A stretch of 31,302 nucleotides of DNA from positions 1-31,302 of IMG/VR virus record IMGVR_UViG_3300010296_003308. One strand, given 5' to 3'. The notes below the pieces were generated by a model, which was not told the origin of the DNA, made no database searches, and worked only from the letters and a program-made list of their open reading frames with translations. How positions within the stretch are numbered: position 1 is the first letter of the stretch; the number at the start of each line of letters is the position of its first letter. Position numbers and translations under genes: made by a program. Origin of the DNA: a virus. Positions 5,143 through 25,002 of the stretch are shown here, piece after piece.

Positions 5143-6561
5143 CTATTCTTCTGTTCCTAGTGTATTTAAAAATTGTCTCAACTTGGTCGAGTCTGTTTCT
5201 GCACGTATCTTCTTAACTGGTTCGCCGTCATCTGGTGTTGAATTATTTGTACCTGTAGGATTTCTTTTGAGTGCATCAAGTATCTTCGACCCTCCAGCAC
5301 TAGCAGTGGTTTGTTCTTCACCATCTTCACCTAGATCCATAATACGTAATGTATCTACATCAAACGCTAGATCGATCTTTTGTCCTACACCTGAACTTGA
5401 ACGTGTCTTCATCAACTGAATTTGATAACGCCCACGCTCACGCATTGCACGACTTGTAAAGATACCTATGAGATTGTCAGCAGTATTAATTTTACTAATA
5501 CCGCCACTAATGTGGCTGTGGTCAAATTCTATCTCCTCAACGCTGGATCTATTTAACTGACTTGCTGTAACAAACACACAGTTAAGTTCCATAGCCAAGT
5601 TACGCAGTTCTTCTGATACGTACTTGTCCTTAACAAACAAGTTCTCTGCACTAATCTTTGCAGCAATTGGATGCATCAAGTCCAAATAGTCTACAAGTAT
5701 TGCATCTACCTTGCGTCCTGTTTTAATTTCATACTCTTTGATGTATGCACGTAAGTCGTTTGCGTTCTTACCAGTTGGCATATACTTGACTTGAAATGCG
5801 CCTGCTTTCTTGCCAATCATCTTAACTTTCATCTGCACATCATCAATTTGCTTAAACACATCTCTGCTAGGTATTTCTGACACCATTGAATCAAGTCGCA
5901 TACTAACTAGATTCTCACTAAGTTCAAAAGTTACGTACAGTACATTCATACCTTCCAAACACCAGTTAACACCTAGGTTAGCCATAAACAAACTCTTACC
6001 TGAACCAGAGCCACCTGCAAAGATGTTAAGCTCGCCTCTGTTGAATCCACCAAACAGTTTCTTATCTAAGCTCGGCCAGCCTGTGCTTACTTGTCCGTTC
6101 TTGTCCTTAATCGCTTCCAAACGACTCTTAGGATCCGCCCAATAGTCAGTACCAAGATCTTTTTGAAGACCAATTTGAACAGCCTTCTTAACCAAGTCTT
6201 CAACAGGCCCATATTCACCTTTCTCAAGCAAGTCAGCACTCTTAAGAATTGCTGCTTCTAGTGCTTTGTGTCTACTAAACGTTTCAAATTCTTGTAGCAA
6301 CCAGTCATAATGATTCTCTTGTAGTTGCCCTGGATTTTTTAGATTGTTATCAGTTGCCGCATTGATCATATCAAATGTAGGCATAGCATTATGCTCTTCG
6401 ACATATTCTTTTAAGAATTTTGCCGGATTTTGTAAACGTCTATCAAATGTGTCAGGATCAAACACACCCTGACATCTTACAAACGATTCTGCATCTGTAA
6501 GAAACATTTCTAAATAAACTTTTTGTATGTCGTAACCGTAGTCTGTATTCTGTCTCGTCAT
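5143..6561 (-). CDS. 41: Replicative DNA helicase, gp41/DnaB family
   Basis: This is the T4 gp41-type hexameric 5'-3' helicase that unwinds DNA at the fork and partners the gp61 primase. The RecA-like core has Walker A GSGSGKS (residues 184-190), Walker B AILVDYLDL (287-295), a TASQLNRS sensor segment (332-339) and an arginine-rich region near 370-378. An all-helical N-terminal region (1-140) is typical. I chose the ATG at 6561 (472 aa). The longer reading from TTG at 6603 is disfavoured because a perfect TATAAT lies 6 bases before the ATG and a TTGACA 18 bases further up, so the transcript would begin at or near this ATG. It is followed without a gap by the GNAT-like gene. Confidence 0.93.
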   Translation of the reverse strand: MTRQNTDYGYDIQKVYLEMFLTDAESFVRCQGVFDPDTFDRRLQNPAKFLKEYVEEHNAMPTFDMINAATDNNLKNPGQLQENHYDWLLQEFETFSRHKALEAAILKSADLLEKGEYGPVEDLVKKAVQIGLQKDLGTDYWADPKSRLEAIKDKNGQVSTGWPSLDKKLFGGFNRGELNIFAGGSGSGKSLFMANLGVNWCLEGMNVLYVTFELSENLVSMRLDSMVSEIPSRDVFKQIDDVQMKVKMIGKKAGAFQVKYMPTGKNANDLRAYIKEYEIKTGRKVDAILVDYLDLMHPIAAKISAENLFVKDKYVSEELRNLAMELNCVFVTASQLNRSSVEEIEFDHSHISGGISKINTADNLIGIFTSRAMRERGRYQIQLMKTRSSSGVGQKIDLAFDVDTLRIMDLGEDGEEQTTASAGGSKILDALKRNPTGTNNSTPDDGEPVKKIRAETDSTKLRQFLNTLGTEE

Positions 6562-6567
6562 GTTCTT

Positions 6568-6597
6568 ATTATACTTTCTTATACCATTGATTGTCAA
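6568..6597 (-). promoter_or_regulatory. Sigma70-type early promoter of gp41 gene
   Basis: On the minus strand TTGACA (6597-6592) is separated by 18 bases from TATAAT (6573-6568), and the ATG of gp41 starts after exactly 6 bases. Both boxes match the bacterial consensus perfectly. The -35 box lies inside the 3' end of the carbamoyltransferase gene. The predicted transcript start coincides with the start codon, giving a leaderless mRNA. Confidence 0.8.
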
Positions 6598-7567
6598 GAA
6601 CAATCTTAGTTTTATGTTTTGCTAATACTGCGCCTATACAACTGCCAGGGTCACCTGGATTTGGAGGAACCCATATGTTAGTCCATTGATTTCTAATCTT
6701 ATCTATTGCATCTCTATTAAGGGCGCCACCGCCTGCAAGTGCTATATTACTAGACCCTGTTATTACTTTGGTCCATATACTGAGTACGTTCACGCAATAT
6801 TCAAATATAGCCTGTGTTGCTGCTGCTATATCATACATGTCTTGCTGTGACTGTAACTCAGGCCTCCACCACATACATCCTCTATGTAAATTTTCACGCA
6901 TATGAATATGATGGGGGTTACGACTTTCGTGGTCAACCTTAATAATTTCTTTGCGCATAATATGTGCTAATCTTTTAGGGTTACCTTTTTTAGCCCACTG
7001 GGCTACAAGATATTCGTCACGCTGTGGTACTAGCCCCATACGTTGTGTCATAGCACTGTAGAAAAGTCCTAGGCTATGTGGATAACCCTGGCTGTAAATC
7101 TTTTTAAGCCGATTATTCTTACCGTGCCATATAGTTAGGGTCTCAAACTCTCCTATACTGTCCAAACAAATTACAGCACAATCGTCGTGTGGTTGAGTGT
7201 AATATGCATAGGCAGCATGTGAAAGATGGTGTTGGGTATACGCAATAGGTGCTGTAATGTTCCAGCGTTTTAGATATCTGCGTATATTATTTTCTTTCCA
7301 CAACCACCCTTGTCCTGCTTTCCATTGTCTAAGAGTTTTGAGCCCAGGTCTTTCATACCAAACTATTTGGTCAGGGTTACCGTAGTCTAGGGCGTGTTTG
7401 ATAATATCACTATTCAAGTGGGGGTCATTAGGTACGCCACTGAAGTCTTTGGCTAACCCTGCCCATAGTAAACTTGTAGTTTCGTTAGGACCTAGGCCTT
7501 TGCGCCTAGTTTCAAATACTGCAACACTTGCATCATGACTGTTGCCAACCATACCCCATTTAATCAT
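6569..7567 (-). CDS. Carbamoyltransferase, NodU/CmcH type (Kae1-like domain only)
   Basis: The 332-aa protein matches the N-terminal Kae1/ASKHA-like half of O-carbamoyltransferases (NodU, CmcH, TobZ). It has NSHDASVAV (residues 9-17), the metal-binding HHLSHAAYAYY (113-123), CLDSIGE (134-140) and GGGALN (279-284). Full-length family members are near 550-600 aa and end in a YrdC-like domain that makes carbamoyl-adenylate; that half is absent here. It may transfer carbamoyl groups made by another enzyme. The ATG overlaps the stop of a DUF2061 gene. Its 3' end carries the -35 box of the gp41 promoter. Carbamoylation of a sugar or a nucleotide is possible; the substrate is not deducible. Confidence 0.82.
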   Translation of the reverse strand: MIKWGMVGNSHDASVAVFETRRKGLGPNETTSLLWAGLAKDFSGVPNDPHLNSDIIKHALDYGNPDQIVWYERPGLKTLRQWKAGQGWLWKENNIRRYLKRWNITAPIAYTQHHLSHAAYAYYTQPHDDCAVICLDSIGEFETLTIWHGKNNRLKKIYSQGYPHSLGLFYSAMTQRMGLVPQRDEYLVAQWAKKGNPKRLAHIMRKEIIKVDHESRNPHHIHMRENLHRGCMWWRPELQSQQDMYDIAAATQAIFEYCVNVLSIWTKVITGSSNIALAGGGALNRDAIDKIRNQWTNIWVPPNPGDPGSCIGAVLAKHKTKIVLDNQWYKKV

Positions 7568-7796: not shown

Positions 7797-7948
7797 TTAT
7801 ATATAAAAGGATCCCTTTTGCGTAATTCTTTTAGACGCCGTCTAAAACGTATTTCGTCTCTAATACGTATATAAGGCCAGGTAATAATGTTCCAAACCCC
7901 ATACAGAAAAGTTATTGTTGCATATTTTATCTTTTTCAACCAAACCAT
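7793..7948 (-). CDS. Small basic protein (51 aa)
   Basis: This short gene reads from ATG at 7948 to TGA at 7793. Its N-terminus is MVWLKKIKYA, followed by an aromatic-hydrophobic stretch that might lie on a membrane (residues 11-26), then a strongly basic half with repeated Arg and Lys. The start overlaps the end of the primase gene by 13 bases and the stop overlaps the next start as ATGA, which matches the coupling seen throughout. AAGAG precedes the ATG. It fills the only gap in this operon. The family is not recognised. A small membrane-associated or nucleic-acid-binding protein is possible. Confidence 0.65.
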   Translation of the reverse strand: MVWLKKIKYATITFLYGVWNIITWPYIRIRDEIRFRRRLKELRKRDPFIYK

Positions 7949-8934
7949 TTTTTTGCTCTTAACCTAATTTTTAACGGAGATTCTTCTGCACAAGACACAA
8001 TTCTATGTAGTGTATACAACCTACCGTGTCTTTCAACAGCATCTCCGATATCGTTTATATCGTCTGCCCAATCAGGCAAGCTCACTGACCAACCTAGGTC
8101 AATTGCGCTTTCAACAAGTTTGCTTCCTGCTTTGTCTCTATCTGGGACAACAATTATTTGCTTGTTTAGTCTATTTAACAACATTGCTTGCTGTTCGTTT
8201 ATTTCTGATCCGCCTAACGCACAGCCTTCTATGTGTAGTGCATCTAATTGTCCTTCGCAAACTATACAAAATATTTTATTAGGACGTTGTTCATCTATGT
8301 TAAACACATAACCCGGTTGTACTTCTGTAAGATACTTAGGTTGTTTGTTAGGTACAATAGTACGTCCTGTCCATCCTACAATTCGTCCTTCATAATAGAA
8401 CGGAATGATAAGTCTATCACGGTAACCTAAACTCGGAGACCAATGATAATCTATATCGTCAATGAGTAGTTTACGTTCTAGCATATACTGGAAGATACGC
8501 ACTATGTTTTCATCTAAGTGTCCGGCTTCGGCCCACTGATGTTTTGCAAGTGGTTCAGCATCGGTTGGCAACGAGACAGTATTGAACTCAGGTAGTGCTG
8601 CTATACGTGTTTTTGCTTCAACACCCTCATTCTCTCTCATCACTTCAAGTGCCACCTTGTTGATTATATCGTCAGGCGCTCCCATCCATTGTAAGAGCCT
8701 TCGCAACTTGTGTGAAAAGTTCCTGCCCGGTTGCCAACTTGCTTTGAACCCACAGTTAAAACAGTGATAACTAACCCCACCGTCTGGATTGGCGATTAGT
8801 CCACCGCGTCCGCGAGTGTCTGCTGAGTGCCCGTTATGATGACAGCACGGTGCATTAAAGGAGATCCATCCACTAGGCGTTTGCTTACGCTTAGATGGCA
8901 GGTATGTCAGAACTGTATCGTTTACTACACTCAT
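7936..8934 (-). CDS. 61: DNA primase, gp61-like (zinc finger plus TOPRIM)
   Basis: The 332-aa protein has an N-terminal zinc-binding segment (Cys/His cluster at residues 30-36, then CFNC at 58-61) and a TOPRIM domain with VCEGQLDA (225-232, catalytic Glu) and VVPDRDKAG (262-270, the DxD). It lays RNA primers for the lagging strand and acts with the gp41 helicase encoded downstream. Length is close to T4 gp61. It has its own consensus promoter directly before the ATG at 8934. Downstream follow a 51-aa protein, DUF2061 and carbamoyltransferase in overlapping frames. Confidence 0.9.
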   Translation of the reverse strand: MSVVNDTVLTYLPSKRKQTPSGWISFNAPCCHHNGHSADTRGRGGLIANPDGGVSYHCFNCGFKASWQPGRNFSHKLRRLLQWMGAPDDIINKVALEVMRENEGVEAKTRIAALPEFNTVSLPTDAEPLAKHQWAEAGHLDENIVRIFQYMLERKLLIDDIDYHWSPSLGYRDRLIIPFYYEGRIVGWTGRTIVPNKQPKYLTEVQPGYVFNIDEQRPNKIFCIVCEGQLDALHIEGCALGGSEINEQQAMLLNRLNKQIIVVPDRDKAGSKLVESAIDLGWSVSLPDWADDINDIGDAVERHGRLYTLHRIVSCAEESPLKIRLRAKKWFG

Positions 8935-9752: not shown

Positions 9753-10121
9753 ATGTTAACAAAAGAGATACAAGAAAAATTTCCATTTTTGTCCGTAGTT
9801 ACTTACGGAGGAGAAGAATTCGTAGGAATCATTATTAATCAAGACGCGGCTGTAACATCTATGTATGTTTACACTAATCTACGTTCACCAGAGGAAAAAC
9901 AAAAGTTTATCGAAATGGGCGAAACATGGTGGTGGGAATCAAATCGTTTGATTCCGATTAATATCTTTCTAAAAAGAGATATGGATCCGTTTAAGTATTC
10001 TATTACTACAATGAATTCAAAAGACGTAAGGGTAGTAATCGGTCCTTGCGTAAATTTAAGTGATTTAAGTATTAAAAGAGTTAAAAGAAAATCAATACAA
10101 TTAGTTAAGCGTCCAAAGTAA
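9753..10121 (+). CDS. Conserved hypothetical protein (122 aa)
   Basis: This plus-strand gene is divergent from the virion-type gene (21 bases between starts) and convergent with the methyltransferase gene, which it overlaps by 17 bases. The protein has a compact beta-rich N-terminal part, a WWWESNRLIPINIF segment (about residues 60-73) and a basic C-terminal tail. I recall similar proteins as conserved hypotheticals in T4-like marine phages, but no function is known to me. There is no clear ribosome-binding site or plus-strand promoter. The overlap on both sides and the even codon use argue that it is real. Confidence 0.72.
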   Translation: MLTKEIQEKFPFLSVVTYGGEEFVGIIINQDAAVTSMYVYTNLRSPEEKQKFIEMGETWWWESNRLIPINIFLKRDMDPFKYSITTMNSKDVRVVIGPCVNLSDLSIKRVKRKSIQLVKRPK

Positions 10122-10605
10122 ACCAAACATTGTTAGGACCAACATCATAATTAACTACTAATTCGTTTACTGCTTTGTTTACACCAGGATAGTCTATATC
10201 ATGACCACTAAGAATTCCATTACGATTAACTTTTGTTTTATAAGCATAAATGTCATTCTTGCAGCCTTCATAATTATGGTCAGCATCTATAAAAATTAAA
10301 TCTACATCAGGTATATCATTTGCAACTTGCGAACTATTGCCTAAAACTGGTATTAGTCTGTTACCATATTTTTCTTTTATAGTACTATTATAAAATCCTG
10401 TTATACTTAGATCAATTCCGTAAATAGTTAATTCAGGACAGTTGTCTAATAGATAGAAAGTAGTGCGTCCGTCTCTGACCCCAACTTCTGCCATACTAGT
10501 GTAATTATTTTCTTTTATAAGATATTCTAAAAAATATTTTCTATTAGGTTTGTTATTCCAACTAATAGTCATTGGAATAGTTAATAAGTCATTACGCCTT
10601 GCCAT
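10105..10605 (-). CDS. Class I SAM methyltransferase (166 aa)
   Basis: Motif I is EVGVRDGRTTFYLL (from about residue 40), followed by an acidic residue in YGIDLS and a motif VDLIFIDADHNYEG typical of the Methyltransf_24-like group, which acts on small molecules or sugars. The length of 166 aa is compact but complete for the Rossmann core. The ATG at 10605 overlaps the end of the mini-DnaE gene by 14 bases. It is the last gene of the 10-kb operon and its 3' end overlaps the convergent gene by 17 bases. The substrate is unknown. Confidence 0.78.
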   Translation of the reverse strand: MARRNDLLTIPMTISWNNKPNRKYFLEYLIKENNYTSMAEVGVRDGRTTFYLLDNCPELTIYGIDLSITGFYNSTIKEKYGNRLIPVLGNSSQVANDIPDVDLIFIDADHNYEGCKNDIYAYKTKVNRNGILSGHDIDYPGVNKAVNELVVNYDVGPNNVWFTLDA

Positions 10606-11158
10606 TTAATTGCTCACAAATTAAATTAGCGTGTACTACAACACTCATTGCGTATGCAACAGCATGCGCTTTCTTAAAATAGTATTCATCATTCTCCGGC
10701 TTCACCCAAACTTCCTTCATTATATCCGTCCATGTCTTCCCAATCAAGTGCCTCTTTGCTGGCCGGATAATTGCTAGGACGGCAGCTAATTGTTCCACGG
10801 AAGTAGGGGAGAGTTTTTTCACTACCGTCCCATGCCCGTTCAAATGAAATAGTTGATCTACAAATTCTGGATGTGTAAACAGTTCCCATAATGGTTCCCT
10901 CGACATTAAGTCTTTTAAATGCTGTTCATCTCTAATATCTTTGTATATAGAGACGTTAAGAAAGTCCAACTTAAAATAACCTCTGTCTTCAGCAGTCTTA
11001 TAATCAATAGTAGATAAGTTGTCAACAGGGTTGTGCGGTATCTCCGTTACATAGATACCTGTATTATGCTTTTTATCTGTATCAAGTTTTGCAATACGAT
11101 GCTGTATTTTCTCTAATACAATATCTCTATTAGCAAAGTCTATATCAATATCAGGCAT
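10592..11158 (-). CDS. Miniature DnaE-like (C-family DNA polymerase) protein
   Basis: The 188-aa protein aligns by eye with scattered core motifs of DNA polymerase III alpha. PDIDIDF (residues 2-8) corresponds to the palm motif with the two catalytic Asp residues (E. coli D401/D403). FKLDFLN (62-68) corresponds to the third Asp motif (D555). LAAVLAIIRPAKRHLIG (124-140) resembles the ALYRPGP region, and FKKAHAVAYA (161-170) resembles the FNKSHAAAYA motif. The PHP domain, thumb, Gly-Ser motif and everything after FNKSH are missing, and family members are about 1,100 aa. It may be a degenerate or repurposed polymerase core. Its start overlaps the peptide deformylase gene, and a methyltransferase follows. 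Confidence 0.65.
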   Translation of the reverse strand: MPDIDIDFANRDIVLEKIQHRIAKLDTDKKHNTGIYVTEIPHNPVDNLSTIDYKTAEDRGYFKLDFLNVSIYKDIRDEQHLKDLMSREPLWELFTHPEFVDQLFHLNGHGTVVKKLSPTSVEQLAAVLAIIRPAKRHLIGKTWTDIMKEVWVKPENDEYYFKKAHAVAYAMSVVVHANLICEQLNGKA

Positions 11159-11648
11159 ATTGCTTCTCTATTTTACGAGCCTTTTTTCTAGCCATGTCCC
11201 ATTTCAATTTACTACAACGATCTTTCATAGTTATTCCTAACAAATGATCTAATTCGTGTAGGTAACACTTAGCACTATAATCAACAATTTTAACTGTTTG
11301 TTGTTCTAGATTTTCATCATAAAATTGTGCAAGTATTTCTTTTGGACGTTTAATTTTAACAAATATATTTGGAAAACTTAAACAACCTTCATAATCGTCT
11401 TGTGTTCCGCTAGTGTATTGTAATACTGTAGGATTAATACAGATAGTAGAGTTTTCTACTTTGTCTCCCATTACAAAAACTTTTGCGTCCAATCCGATTT
11501 GATTTGCACTTAATCCAATACCATTCTTAGACAACATGAACTCGACCATCTGTTCTTTTAATTCTTTTGGATCAAATCCAGGATTTTCAACGTCAACATC
11601 CTTGACTTCTTTTTCTAAAAATTCATTTGGAAAGTACAATAGTTCCAT
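11151..11648 (-). CDS. def: Peptide deformylase
   Basis: All three family motifs are present: GIGLSANQ (residues 43-50, GxGLAAxQ type), EGCLS (87-91, metal-binding Cys) and HELDH (131-135, two metal-binding His and the catalytic Glu). It removes the formyl group from the N-terminal Met of nascent proteins. The length of 165 aa is usual, with a basic C-terminal helix. Phage-encoded deformylases are known from marine phages. The start overlaps the preceding stop as TAATG, and the end overlaps the mini-DnaE start, so it is co-translated with both. Confidence 0.95.
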   Translation of the reverse strand: MELLYFPNEFLEKEVKDVDVENPGFDPKELKEQMVEFMLSKNGIGLSANQIGLDAKVFVMGDKVENSTICINPTVLQYTSGTQDDYEGCLSFPNIFVKIKRPKEILAQFYDENLEQQTVKIVDYSAKCYLHELDHLLGITMKDRCSKLKWDMARKKARKIEKQYA

Positions 11649-13415: not shown

Positions 13416-13866
13416 CAACTCCATGCTCTTCAGCCAACTGCTTGATTTCTTTTTTTGTAGATATTCTAGCAAGTAATTCTACCTCATCTTCTTTCATATT
13501 TGGATATATTGATTTTAAAAAGTTAATAACCTTGCTATCATCTGCGTTTTTCTTTTTAAATCCAATCCAAGGATGGAATTCTTTTTTACCTGTGTTGCCG
13601 CATTGACAAAGTATTAACCATTGTAGTTTTGCTTCTTTGTTACCAAGCACTGCCCAGTTTTTATTGTAGTATTCGTTAGTCTTAAACACAGCAAGTTCTT
13701 GTTTTTCACGACTACCAGTAACACTGCTCATATACCTGTTTAAGTTCCACAAGTCACCTTTGATTTCTTTTTGGCCTTCTTCGCCAGCAGCATCCCACAT
13801 ATCAGTGATGCCGGCGTCAAGTGCCGGTATCATTTCTTTGAATAAATCAATGTGCTTGTTTGGCAT
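13402..13866 (-). CDS. 62: Probable clamp-loader small subunit, gp62-like
   Basis: The 154-aa protein has the pattern I associate with gp62 of T4-like marine phages: an N-terminal LFKEMIPALDAG helix, a central NRYMSSVTGSREKQELAVF, then a TNEYYNKNW segment, a KLQWLILCQCG helix and an HPWIGF turn. T4 gp62 joins four gp44 ATPases to load the gp45 clamp. The assignment is from memory of the pattern and is tentative. gp44 and gp45 are not in the window, whereas T4 keeps 45-44-62 together. Here it follows kdsB, overlapping its end. Confidence 0.5.
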   Translation of the reverse strand: MPNKHIDLFKEMIPALDAGITDMWDAAGEEGQKEIKGDLWNLNRYMSSVTGSREKQELAVFKTNEYYNKNWAVLGNKEAKLQWLILCQCGNTGKKEFHPWIGFKKKNADDSKVINFLKSIYPNMKEDEVELLARISTKKEIKQLAEEHGVDVKL

Positions 13867-14530
13867 TCCATACCTCTACATCTTCAGGTGTATTAATCTC
13901 AGTACCATTAAATTGTACACTCAAACAACCAATTTGCCAACCATTTTTTAACCAACGCAACTGCTCAAGTTTCTCTATGCGTTCTTCTTTTTCAACACGT
14001 AAATGAGGATATACTTGTAGTGCATTTTTGCGATAGCCATATACACCCAAATGCCATTCGCCGTATCCTGTCATACCTCTACCAAACCATAGTGCTTGAT
14101 CACCTGCCCGTACCATCTTCACACTATTTGGATTGTTTTGTTCTTCTTCTGGCATTGTAGTAAACACTGTACTTACACTATAATGTTCAAGACTAAGCAA
14201 ACACTTTTTAATCATTTCTGTAGTTACATCTGGCATATCACCTTGCACGTTTACAAAATAATCAAATTCGTCAAACACACGACTTGCTACTGCACCTGCG
14301 CATCTTTCTGTACCGTTTTCATAATCTGCTGTATCTATAATACACTTGCTGGCACCCATATAGTTGTATATGTCTTGATGATCAGTAAGCACGTATGTTG
14401 GTAGGTTAGACGCAATACAAGCGTCATACACACGTTTTATCATAGGAATGCCATCTAACTCAACCAAAGGCTTTCCAGGGTAACGTGTGCTTGCGTATCT
14501 AGCGGGAATAAGAATAGCGGACGATGTCAT
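13847..14530 (-). CDS. kdsB: 3-deoxy-manno-octulosonate cytidylyltransferase (KdsB)
   Basis: The 227-aa protein has the KdsB motifs in order: IPARYASTRYPGKPL (residues 8-22), GTERCA (73-78), NVQGDMP (94-100), HLGVYGYR (160-167), EKLEQLRWL (186-194) and TPEDVE (214-219). It activates Kdo with CTP to CMP-Kdo, the donor for Kdo transferases of LPS and group 2 capsules. It is slightly shorter than the ~245-aa cellular enzymes. It overlaps the end of kdsA by 32 bases, so the two are co-translated. KdsC and KdsD are not in the window and would come from the host. Confidence 0.93.
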   Translation of the reverse strand: MTSSAILIPARYASTRYPGKPLVELDGIPMIKRVYDACIASNLPTYVLTDHQDIYNYMGASKCIIDTADYENGTERCAGAVASRVFDEFDYFVNVQGDMPDVTTEMIKKCLLSLEHYSVSTVFTTMPEEEQNNPNSVKMVRAGDQALWFGRGMTGYGEWHLGVYGYRKNALQVYPHLRVEKEERIEKLEQLRWLKNGWQIGCLSVQFNGTEINTPEDVEVWNAKQAH

Positions 14531-15260
14531 CTACAACCCTTTCGAAGTCATCTAAACATAACATATTAGGTCCATCACTTGGCGCCATATCTGGAACAGG
14601 ATGTACTTCTAAAAAGAAGTTAGTTACACCCATTGCAGATGCAGCACGAGCCAAGCCAGGGACGTACCTACGATTACCGCCGCTACTACTGCCATTTCCT
14701 CCCGGGCGTTGAACCGAGTGGGTAACATCAAAAACAACAGGAACATTATAGGTATCAAGCATATGCTGAATGCCAGTGAAATCAACGACCAAAGTATTAT
14801 ATCCAAAACTAGTTCCCCTTTCAGTAATCCATACTGCTTTTGCACCTTCTGTTTTACTCAGTATTCCTTTGACATCCCAAGGTGCTAAGAATTGTCCTTT
14901 TTTAATATTAACAACACAATCAGTTTTACATGCGGCTTGTATTAAATCAGTTTGTCGGCAAAGGAATGCAGGAATTTGTATTACATCTACAATTTTTTCA
15001 ACCCATTCTATTTGTTCAACACTATGTACATCTGTTAGCAAATTAACTTTTAATTCATTTTTAAGCACTTGGAAGTCAGACATAGTAACATCTGCTCCTA
15101 CTCCTCTTTCACCGTTTATACTAGTTCGATTTGCTTTGTCAAAACTTGCTTTGAAGATATAATCAATACCATGTTTATCGCATACACGTTTACATTCACG
15201 TGCAATTTTCATGCTGTGCTCAAGTGATTCATGTTGGCACGGGCCCGCAATAATTCTCAA
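14499..15260 (-). CDS. kdsA: 3-deoxy-8-phosphooctulonate synthase (KdsA)
   Basis: KdsA joins phosphoenolpyruvate and arabinose 5-phosphate to Kdo-8-phosphate. Visible motifs are AGPC (residues 5-8), FKASFDKANRTS (36-47), IPAFLCRQTDL (96-106), FDVTHSVQRPG (177-187), FLEVHP (216-221) and SDG (228-230). Cys at position 8, where E. coli KdsA has Asn, points to the metal-dependent class; His181, Glu218 and Asp229 are the likely other ligands. The start is TTG at 15260 overlapping the cupin stop as TTGA, with AAGGAG six bases upstream. At 253 aa it begins very close to the barrel, shorter at the N-terminus than E. coli KdsA. Confidence 0.93.
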   Translation of the reverse strand: MRIIAGPCQHESLEHSMKIARECKRVCDKHGIDYIFKASFDKANRTSINGERGVGADVTMSDFQVLKNELKVNLLTDVHSVEQIEWVEKIVDVIQIPAFLCRQTDLIQAACKTDCVVNIKKGQFLAPWDVKGILSKTEGAKAVWITERGTSFGYNTLVVDFTGIQHMLDTYNVPVVFDVTHSVQRPGGNGSSSGGNRRYVPGLARAASAMGVTNFFLEVHPVPDMAPSDGPNMLCLDDFERVVDDIVRYSYSR

Positions 15261-23562: not shown

Positions 23563-24229
23563 TCATCATGTCCTGTAATTCATCTTTCCACAAACGAGAA
23601 AATTCACCGTTTCTATAATTTTCAAACCAAGGACCACCTTCTGTGTAATGTATTAGTTTTGGAGTTTCAATATCATCATATACCCCAACAAGATAGTTCC
23701 ATGTATGATCTAGTTCGCCAATTTCTTCATCCTTGAGCCAACTAAACCGGTGTAAGTATGCACCATTGATTTCTGGATCGTTAACAAAATCTTGTGTAAG
23801 TTTTTTATTACTTGGATGTCCACAGTTCCAAAGTACAACACTTGACCAATTTTTACGCGGATAAGATGTTTGCTTTTGTCCATCCATCTTTGTGCCTTCT
23901 TTTACTTCATAATCGTGTTGCACACACATTACAGCATACTTGTCATCTGTTTGGTCAAATAATTCTTTGATATCGGTTGTAAGGATCATATCACAATCCA
24001 TAAACAAAGCCCAACCTTGAAAATTCATTAATTCAGGAACAAGGAAACGAGTAAATGTAAATTCAGTACTTGCAAGTTTATCCACTGGACGGGTATACCA
24101 ACCAGCATCTCGCAATTCTGCTTGCTTGAGTGGACGTACTACTGCCTCTGGTTGTCTAGAGAGAATACTATGTTTACAAACTTGGTACGCAATATCTTCT
24201 CTAGTATCATAACCTACATATACTTTCAT
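23555..24229 (-). CDS. GT-A (GT8-like) glycosyltransferase (224 aa)
   Basis: WALFMDCDMILTTDI (residues 73-87) contains the DxD motif of GT8-like retaining transferases, and the first strand MKVYVGYD is the usual nucleotide-sugar Rossmann strand. A late segment GELDHTWNYLVGVYD resembles acceptor-site sequences of GT8 members. I start at ATG 24229, which overlaps the previous stop as TAATG and has AAGAGA upstream; the longer reading from 24274 is an Arg-rich, out-of-frame translation of the upstream gene's 3' end. Confidence 0.75.
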   Translation of the reverse strand: MKVYVGYDTREDIAYQVCKHSILSRQPEAVVRPLKQAELRDAGWYTRPVDKLASTEFTFTRFLVPELMNFQGWALFMDCDMILTTDIKELFDQTDDKYAVMCVQHDYEVKEGTKMDGQKQTSYPRKNWSSVVLWNCGHPSNKKLTQDFVNDPEINGAYLHRFSWLKDEEIGELDHTWNYLVGVYDDIETPKLIHYTEGGPWFENYRNGEFSRLWKDELQDMMND

Positions 24230-25002
24230 TAATCTCTTCTTTCTATGTCTTCTTCTATACATTCTTCGCCCCACTGTATTTCTAATATGTGAGCGTTTAC
24301 TTCTTCAGGATTGCTGGCTTTGTGCCACACTTGGTTGCCTACTTCATAACCTATAATGTTTCCTGGCTCTAAATATCTTTGTTCTTTTCTACCTTCCCAC
24401 TCAGTTTGCATTAGTACAATACCTTCAAGCACATGCCAATGTTCTGAGCGTTTAAAATGGCGTTGATCACTTAACGATTTTCCTGGATATATTACTAGTT
24501 CTTTTACTTTGTAACCTTTTTCTGGCTTATGATCAAGTACCCGCCAGTAACCCCAGTCACGCTCCGTTTTCTGTGTTTTCCATTCATCTAGTATCCAACT
24601 ACTTGAATTTATTTTGTTATCACCACCTACGCCAAATGCAAATTCAACTTGTGGATGATCACCATATATCTTATACTCAGGTGTAGTTGTGTTTGTTCTA
24701 TCACCTCCATTGGCAAAAATAACCTTTCCTGAGTTAGTCGACATTGTTTTAAAAATTGCACCGCATGCGCTGTCGTCTCCATCGTCAAAACTAATTACTT
24801 GATCAACACAAGCAAGTTCTTTTATAATTGCCGCACGTTCTGCTATCGGCATAAATGGTCTTCCTTTTTTACGGGTAAGCCAATCATCACTATTTACTCC
24901 AACAACAAGTTTATCGCCTAACTTTTTTGCTGCTTTGAAATATTCTATATGTCCACTGTGTAATGGATCAAAACCACCTGTAACTAAAACCACTTTTTGC
25001 AT
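24229..25002 (-). CDS. Fused cytidylyltransferase (RfaE2/HldE-C-like) and ManC-type cupin (257 aa)
   Basis: The N-terminal ~145 residues form a nucleotidyltransferase domain: GGFDPLHSGHIEYF (9-22, with HSGH) and NGGDR (98-102), closest to glycerol-3-phosphate/heptose-1-phosphate cytidylyl- or adenylyltransferases. The C-terminal ~105 residues are a cupin matching the mannose-6-phosphate isomerase part of ManC/AlgA: WGYWRVLD (150-157), GYKVKELVIYPG (163-174) and RSEHWHVLEG (185-194). It could both isomerise a sugar phosphate and activate it as an NDP-sugar. A perfect late box TATAAATA ends 5 bases before the ATG. It opens the glycosyltransferase block reading leftwards. Confidence 0.8.
   Translation of the reverse strand: MQKVVLVTGGFDPLHSGHIEYFKAAKKLGDKLVVGVNSDDWLTRKKGRPFMPIAERAAIIKELACVDQVISFDDGDDSACGAIFKTMSTNSGKVIFANGGDRTNTTTPEYKIYGDHPQVEFAFGVGGDNKINSSSWILDEWKTQKTERDWGYWRVLDHKPEKGYKVKELVIYPGKSLSDQRHFKRSEHWHVLEGIVLMQTEWEGRKEQRYLEPGNIIGYEVGNQVWHKASNPEEVNAHILEIQWGEECIEEDIERRD

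Follow-up and report, generated by a model that had tools for sequence, protein, structure and literature searches.

How can a viral protein of 188 amino acids (aa) carry the active-site motifs of bacterial DnaE, the alpha subunit of DNA polymerase III (Pol III)? The question is raised by an open reading frame (ORF) in the IMG/VR record IMGVR_UViG_3300010296_003308, of which we analyzed positions 1 to 31,302 (in the following called the window, a 31-kb fragment). A first-pass annotation had read this ORF as a self-contained miniature of the polymerase core, possibly kept as a repurposed nucleotidyltransferase, a host-polymerase decoy or a sliding-clamp competitor. This interpretation was partly supported. 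We consider it highly probable that the ORF encodes the C-terminal subunit of a two-subunit minimal C-family DNA polymerase, with the active site divided between the two chains. The gene and its motifs are arranged as follows.

10592..11158, minus strand: predicted C-terminal half of a split minimal Pol III alpha (in the following called C half), 188 aa, assigned by PHROG 11778, homologs, alignment, AlphaFold and Foldseek
11135..11155, minus strand: PDIDIDF metal-binding motif, residues 2–8, right after the start codon; D3, D5 and D7 correspond to D401, D403 and D405 of Escherichia coli DnaE
10955..10972, minus strand: KLDFLN (FKLDFLN, residues 62–68), with the third catalytic Asp, D65, corresponding to DnaE D555, and K63 to K553
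10754..10765, minus strand: RPAK, within the ALFRPGP-like IIRPAKR (residues 130–136), corresponding to the fingers motif 639-RPGP-642 of DnaE
10649..10678, minus strand: FKKAHAVAYA, residues 161–170, corresponding to the DnaE fingers motif FNKSHSAAYA

The ORF matches PHROG 11778, annotated as “DNA polymerase”, with an E-value of 3.2e-63. Relatives occur in 90 phage records and, within IMG/VR, in at least 576 stretches. The closest of them, on contig G001, is 87% identical to the C half of the window, and those of the nearest cultured phages (the Atu_ph07, Phosso and PA5oct group) are 51–54% identical. Compared with its closest relatives, the gene shows a ratio of nonsynonymous to synonymous substitution rates (dN/dS) of about 0.08–0.09 and is under strong purifying selection. 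Across 83 aligned sequences, of which the others share 36–87% identity with the ORF of the window, residues D3, D5, D7, K63, D65, R132, P133, K135, F161, H165 and Y169 were invariant. All three catalytic Asp residues of C-family polymerases (DxD plus KxD) are thus kept in 83 of 83 sequences, and the four motifs follow each other in the DnaE order (P400-DFDVDF, KFD555FLG, R639-PGP and N757-KSH in E. coli), and both features had been noticed in the ORF itself by the first-pass annotation.

The AlphaFold model computed from this alignment reached a pLDDT of 92.7 and consists of strands bearing the Asp residues plus helical pieces of the fingers. When we searched the PDB with this model by Foldseek, the first nine matches were all DNA polymerases. 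Eight of these, from Taq Pol III alpha and DnaE of the Mycobacterium tuberculosis type, had a Foldseek probability of 0.99–1.0. Pol III alpha subunits are the only PDB structures that the model matches convincingly. In a viral structure library, the named matches among the top 20 were nearly all DNA polymerases, several of them Pol III alpha. A sequence-profile match to the tRNA hydroxylase 8fhc (E = 0.02) was judged to be due to chance. Together, the PHROG match, the spread over phage and IMG/VR records, the low dN/dS and the top Foldseek matches exclude a chance motif match, and the ORF is confirmed as a genuine gene and a real DnaE relative.

One element could not be found in the 188-aa ORF, the GRGS nucleotide-binding motif that lies upstream of DxD in C-family polymerases. 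When seven records (four complete phages plus three large contigs from the environment) were searched with PF07733, six of them, including all the complete phages, contained a second small gene, which matches positions ~16–98 of that profile alone. In the seventh record, the contig G002, a single-chain DnaE-like gene of 560 aa takes its place. The second gene belongs to PHROG 11127 (in the following called N half), encodes ~165–190 aa, has at least 456 relatives in IMG/VR and contains an invariant G-x-GRGSS motif. The proteins from the PF07733 search end in G-x-GRGS...EFL[K/R/E/N], with the stop there or at most one residue later, and each of the 53 N-half ends inspected terminates in EFLR or EFMR, with a single extra residue in one case. 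The C-half proteins begin with M(P)DIDIDF. Aligned to the solved DnaE 5lew, the N-half profile reaches residue 406 and the C-half profile sets in at 415; in E. coli DnaE, residue 393 is the last one covered by the N half, and the DxD motif begins at 400. Placed on DnaE in this way, the two halves adjoin without overlap. The top 12 Foldseek matches of the N-half model were all DnaE or PolC structures. Residues 1 to ~75 of the N half (e.g., L101:5001-5228) are well conserved among the closer relatives of the window, with a low-confidence model and no clear DnaE counterpart.

To follow both halves through larger genomes, we inspected 22 large records, 21 chosen via the C half and one (L160) via the N half. 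The C half and the N half each occur exactly once in all 22. By record coordinates, the distance between them is never below 30 kb, although a few pairs may be closer if some linear records are really circular. A single ORF joining both halves was not seen, as at the 58 loci checked no more than 46 aa of open frame precede the match, and one scan with the Phosso N half as query found no relatives. Joining of the halves by an intein or trans-splicing was rejected, because the N half ends cleanly behind EFLR/EFLK and unrelated sequence follows its stop.

A B-family polymerase is also present in six of the seven records searched, in agreement with the first-pass assumption of such an enzyme alongside; the exception is the 155-kb contig G002, which is perhaps incomplete. 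In G001, the N half lies at 5.9–6.5 kb and the B-family polymerase at 36–38 kb. PHP and HHH_6 domains were not found in eight relatives in which control profiles matched. The 560-aa protein of G002 (L090; IMGVR_UViG_3300026097_000008, 13704-14351, minus strand) is PHP-less, and a split-type C half (L012) is encoded ~6 kb away; in this contig, where no B-family polymerase was found, the 560-aa protein is possibly a second or replacement polymerase. The B-family match spans more than one open frame in Atu_ph07 (W03:212336-213688) and Paride (W02:88906-92683), and a PolB that is split and contains an intein has been published for MIJ3, a related phage (PMC6892783).

For the pair, we propose the following arrangement. 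The C half would supply the catalytic Asp triad and reduced fingers, and the N half the GRGS nucleotide-binding loop, ending at the position of the DnaE “ERFLN” end, ~8 residues before DxD. The two proteins probably associate noncovalently to form one Pol-beta-type palm with small fingers, ~370 aa in total. Such a reconstituted core would have neither PHP, helical thumb and HhH/OB/tau-binding region nor an intein. In E. coli DnaE, D403 and D555 are separated by 152 residues that include the helical thumb; in the C half, D5 and D65 are only ~60 residues apart, without long helices in the AlphaFold model, and the thumb therefore appears to be gone. Homology, the split point, the co-occurrence of the halves, their conservation and the predicted fold of the C half are documented by the data; beyond this, we infer that the halves bind each other and polymerize DNA, probably adding nucleotides in a template-directed manner within the phage replication and recombination machinery, beside the B-family replicase. 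Primer extension or gap filling during repair are possible tasks, with processivity coming from partners. In its boldest form, for which we see the chances as evenly balanced, the halves would reassemble into the smallest active C-family polymerase known (~370 aa), which would serve a very widespread phage lineage as a dedicated second polymerase alongside the B-family replicase, for instance in lagging-strand primer extension.

Several observations weigh against this interpretation. The N half was not found within the 31-kb fragment itself, although it is present in G001. The Foldseek TM-scores of the C half are moderate (0.38–0.51, with E-values of ~1e-3), the N-half model is poor over residues 1–76, and the sequence-profile matches of the two halves to the solved DnaE are weak (E ~0.015 and 0.006). 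With the thumb and most of the fingers gone, DNA binding may be weak, and no experimental study of the split pair was found in the open-access literature. When Pfam was searched with the single C-half sequence, DNA_pol3_finger stayed below the threshold (12.3 bits versus a cut-off of 22), and the C-half profile aligned correctly to the single E. coli DnaE sequence, yet with a low probability (7.6%). The link of the C half to DnaE rests mainly on the PHROG match, motif conservation, the fold search and the paired N half.

As an alternative, the complex of the two halves might use its C-family active site for a task other than polymerization, such as nucleotidyl transfer to a protein, an RNA or a small molecule, or the sensing of nucleoside triphosphates (NTPs). 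Many enzymes of the nucleotidyltransferase fold are not polymerases, the catalytic residues are kept here though the thumb and much of the fingers were lost, and most of these phages have a B-family polymerase. However, the fingers motifs RP-x-K and FKKAH, corresponding to RPGP and FNKSH in DnaE, are invariant or nearly so, and the gene lies in a primase-helicase block in 55 of 57 relatives. We regard a non-polymerase complex as unlikely.

The small size and the loss of most Pol III domains would also suit a non-catalytic regulator, that is, a decoy or inhibitor of the host Pol III or a sliding-clamp competitor, as considered in the first-pass annotation. Such a role seems very improbable. The three Asp residues together with K63, R132 and H165 are invariant in all 83 sequences, selection is strong (dN/dS 0.08–0.09), and a GRGS-bearing second gene always accompanies the C half; all of this would be needless in a decoy, which is therefore not supported. 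A clamp competitor is not supported either, as no conserved clamp-binding motif was seen. The candidate “QLFHL” was rejected, as its Q occurs in just 33 of 83 sequences and it aligns with “VFQLES” of DnaE, an element of the polymerase core.

A self-contained single-chain mini-polymerase or nucleotidyltransferase would agree with the confident predicted fold of the C half alone. Against it, all large relatives tested have the GRGS motif and its helices in another conserved gene. As this second gene provides half of the active site, we consider a nucleotidyltransferase acting on its own unlikely, and the “miniature core” gives way to one half of a two-gene polymerase; we assign single-chain readings only a very small probability. 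That the ORF, far shorter than DnaE, is what remains of a degraded full-length gene, or an artefact of sequencing, is refuted by its start and length, conserved across hundreds of viruses, its dN/dS of 0.08–0.09 and its conserved synteny, leaving a negligible probability.

One earlier genome comparison bears directly on this locus. It proposed a split minimal Pol III alpha for the “group 2.2” jumbo phages, among them Atu_ph07, which has the pair of PHROG 11127 and PHROG 11778 (Iyer et al. 2021, PMC7824862). As described there, the predicted C-terminal Mg- and template-binding protein of the window starts at the DxD motif, a separate and distant gene for the putative N-terminal NTP-binding protein occurs in 22 of 22 large relatives including G001, a family B polymerase coexists in six of seven records, and no other Pol III domains (PHP, HHH_6) were found in eight relatives. 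Nothing essential differs; the window represents an environmental member whose N half lies outside the 31-kb fragment. In a survey of marine jumbo phages (PMC9123017), the PF07733 domain is listed as the one distinguishing gene that about half of the members (51.9%) of a phage cluster possess, and this gene may well be the N half. We found no description of the split pair in the open-access literature beyond the group 2.2 proposal, and no experimental work; the gene of the window is thus a further example of an already described, experimentally uncharacterised system.

Bacterial DnaE (e.g., E. coli 2HNH, Taq 2HPI, M. tuberculosis 7PU7) shares with the split pair the active-site motifs, the order in which they occur and, for the matched parts, the fold. 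DnaE is one chain of 1160 aa, whereas the split pair comprises two chains of ~185 and 188 aa without the PHP, thumb, HhH, OB and tau-binding parts of DnaE and PolC and with strongly reduced fingers; the drastic reduction pointed out in the first-pass annotation is real. DnaE and PolC carry GRGS in the same chain; here, the second protein supplies it. Single-chain phage DnaE-like polymerases (PHROG 405 and 11165; e.g., the 560-aa protein mentioned above) share the C-family core and are in part PHP-less, but hold GRGS and DxD in one ORF and have less reduced fingers. It is unusual for a palm to be split through its active site and for the two halves, encoded at least 30 kb apart, to be conserved in hundreds of viruses. 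If active, the pair would be a minimal C-family polymerase from which to learn which parts of DnaE are essential, and one may ask why a phage already equipped with a B-family replicase retains a second, bacterial-type core. Direct tests are possible in cultured members, such as PA5oct-like Pseudomonas phages and Asteriusvirus coliphages (e.g., 121Q).

The following neighboring genes surround the C half in the window.

11151..11648, minus strand: peptide deformylase gene, its end sharing 8 nt (11151–11158) with the start of the C-half gene
9753..10121, plus strand: convergent downstream neighbor, PHROG 11637, 122 aa, present in 81 of 81 relatives with enough sequence
7936..8934, minus strand: DNA primase, in 55 of 57 relatives with enough sequence
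5143..6603, minus strand: DnaB/gp41-like replicative helicase of the same replication block

The start of the C-half gene is effectively fixed, since the whole open frame (191 aa) is just about three codons longer and the ATG start codon overlaps the end of the deformylase gene. The PHROG 11637 product is a candidate partner of the C half, or simply a fixed neighbor. The window also encodes a DNA helicase and a UvsX-like recombinase, placing the C-half gene in a replication and recombination neighborhood, and cultured phages including Atu_ph07, Paride (PA5oct group), Phosso and 121Q show the same arrangement. Elsewhere in the window (13847–15260 and 24229–25002, minus strand), genes for a cytidylyltransferase, a DAHP/KDO-8-P synthase-type enzyme and a heptose-phosphate adenylyltransferase-like protein suggest phage-encoded synthesis of lipopolysaccharide sugars.
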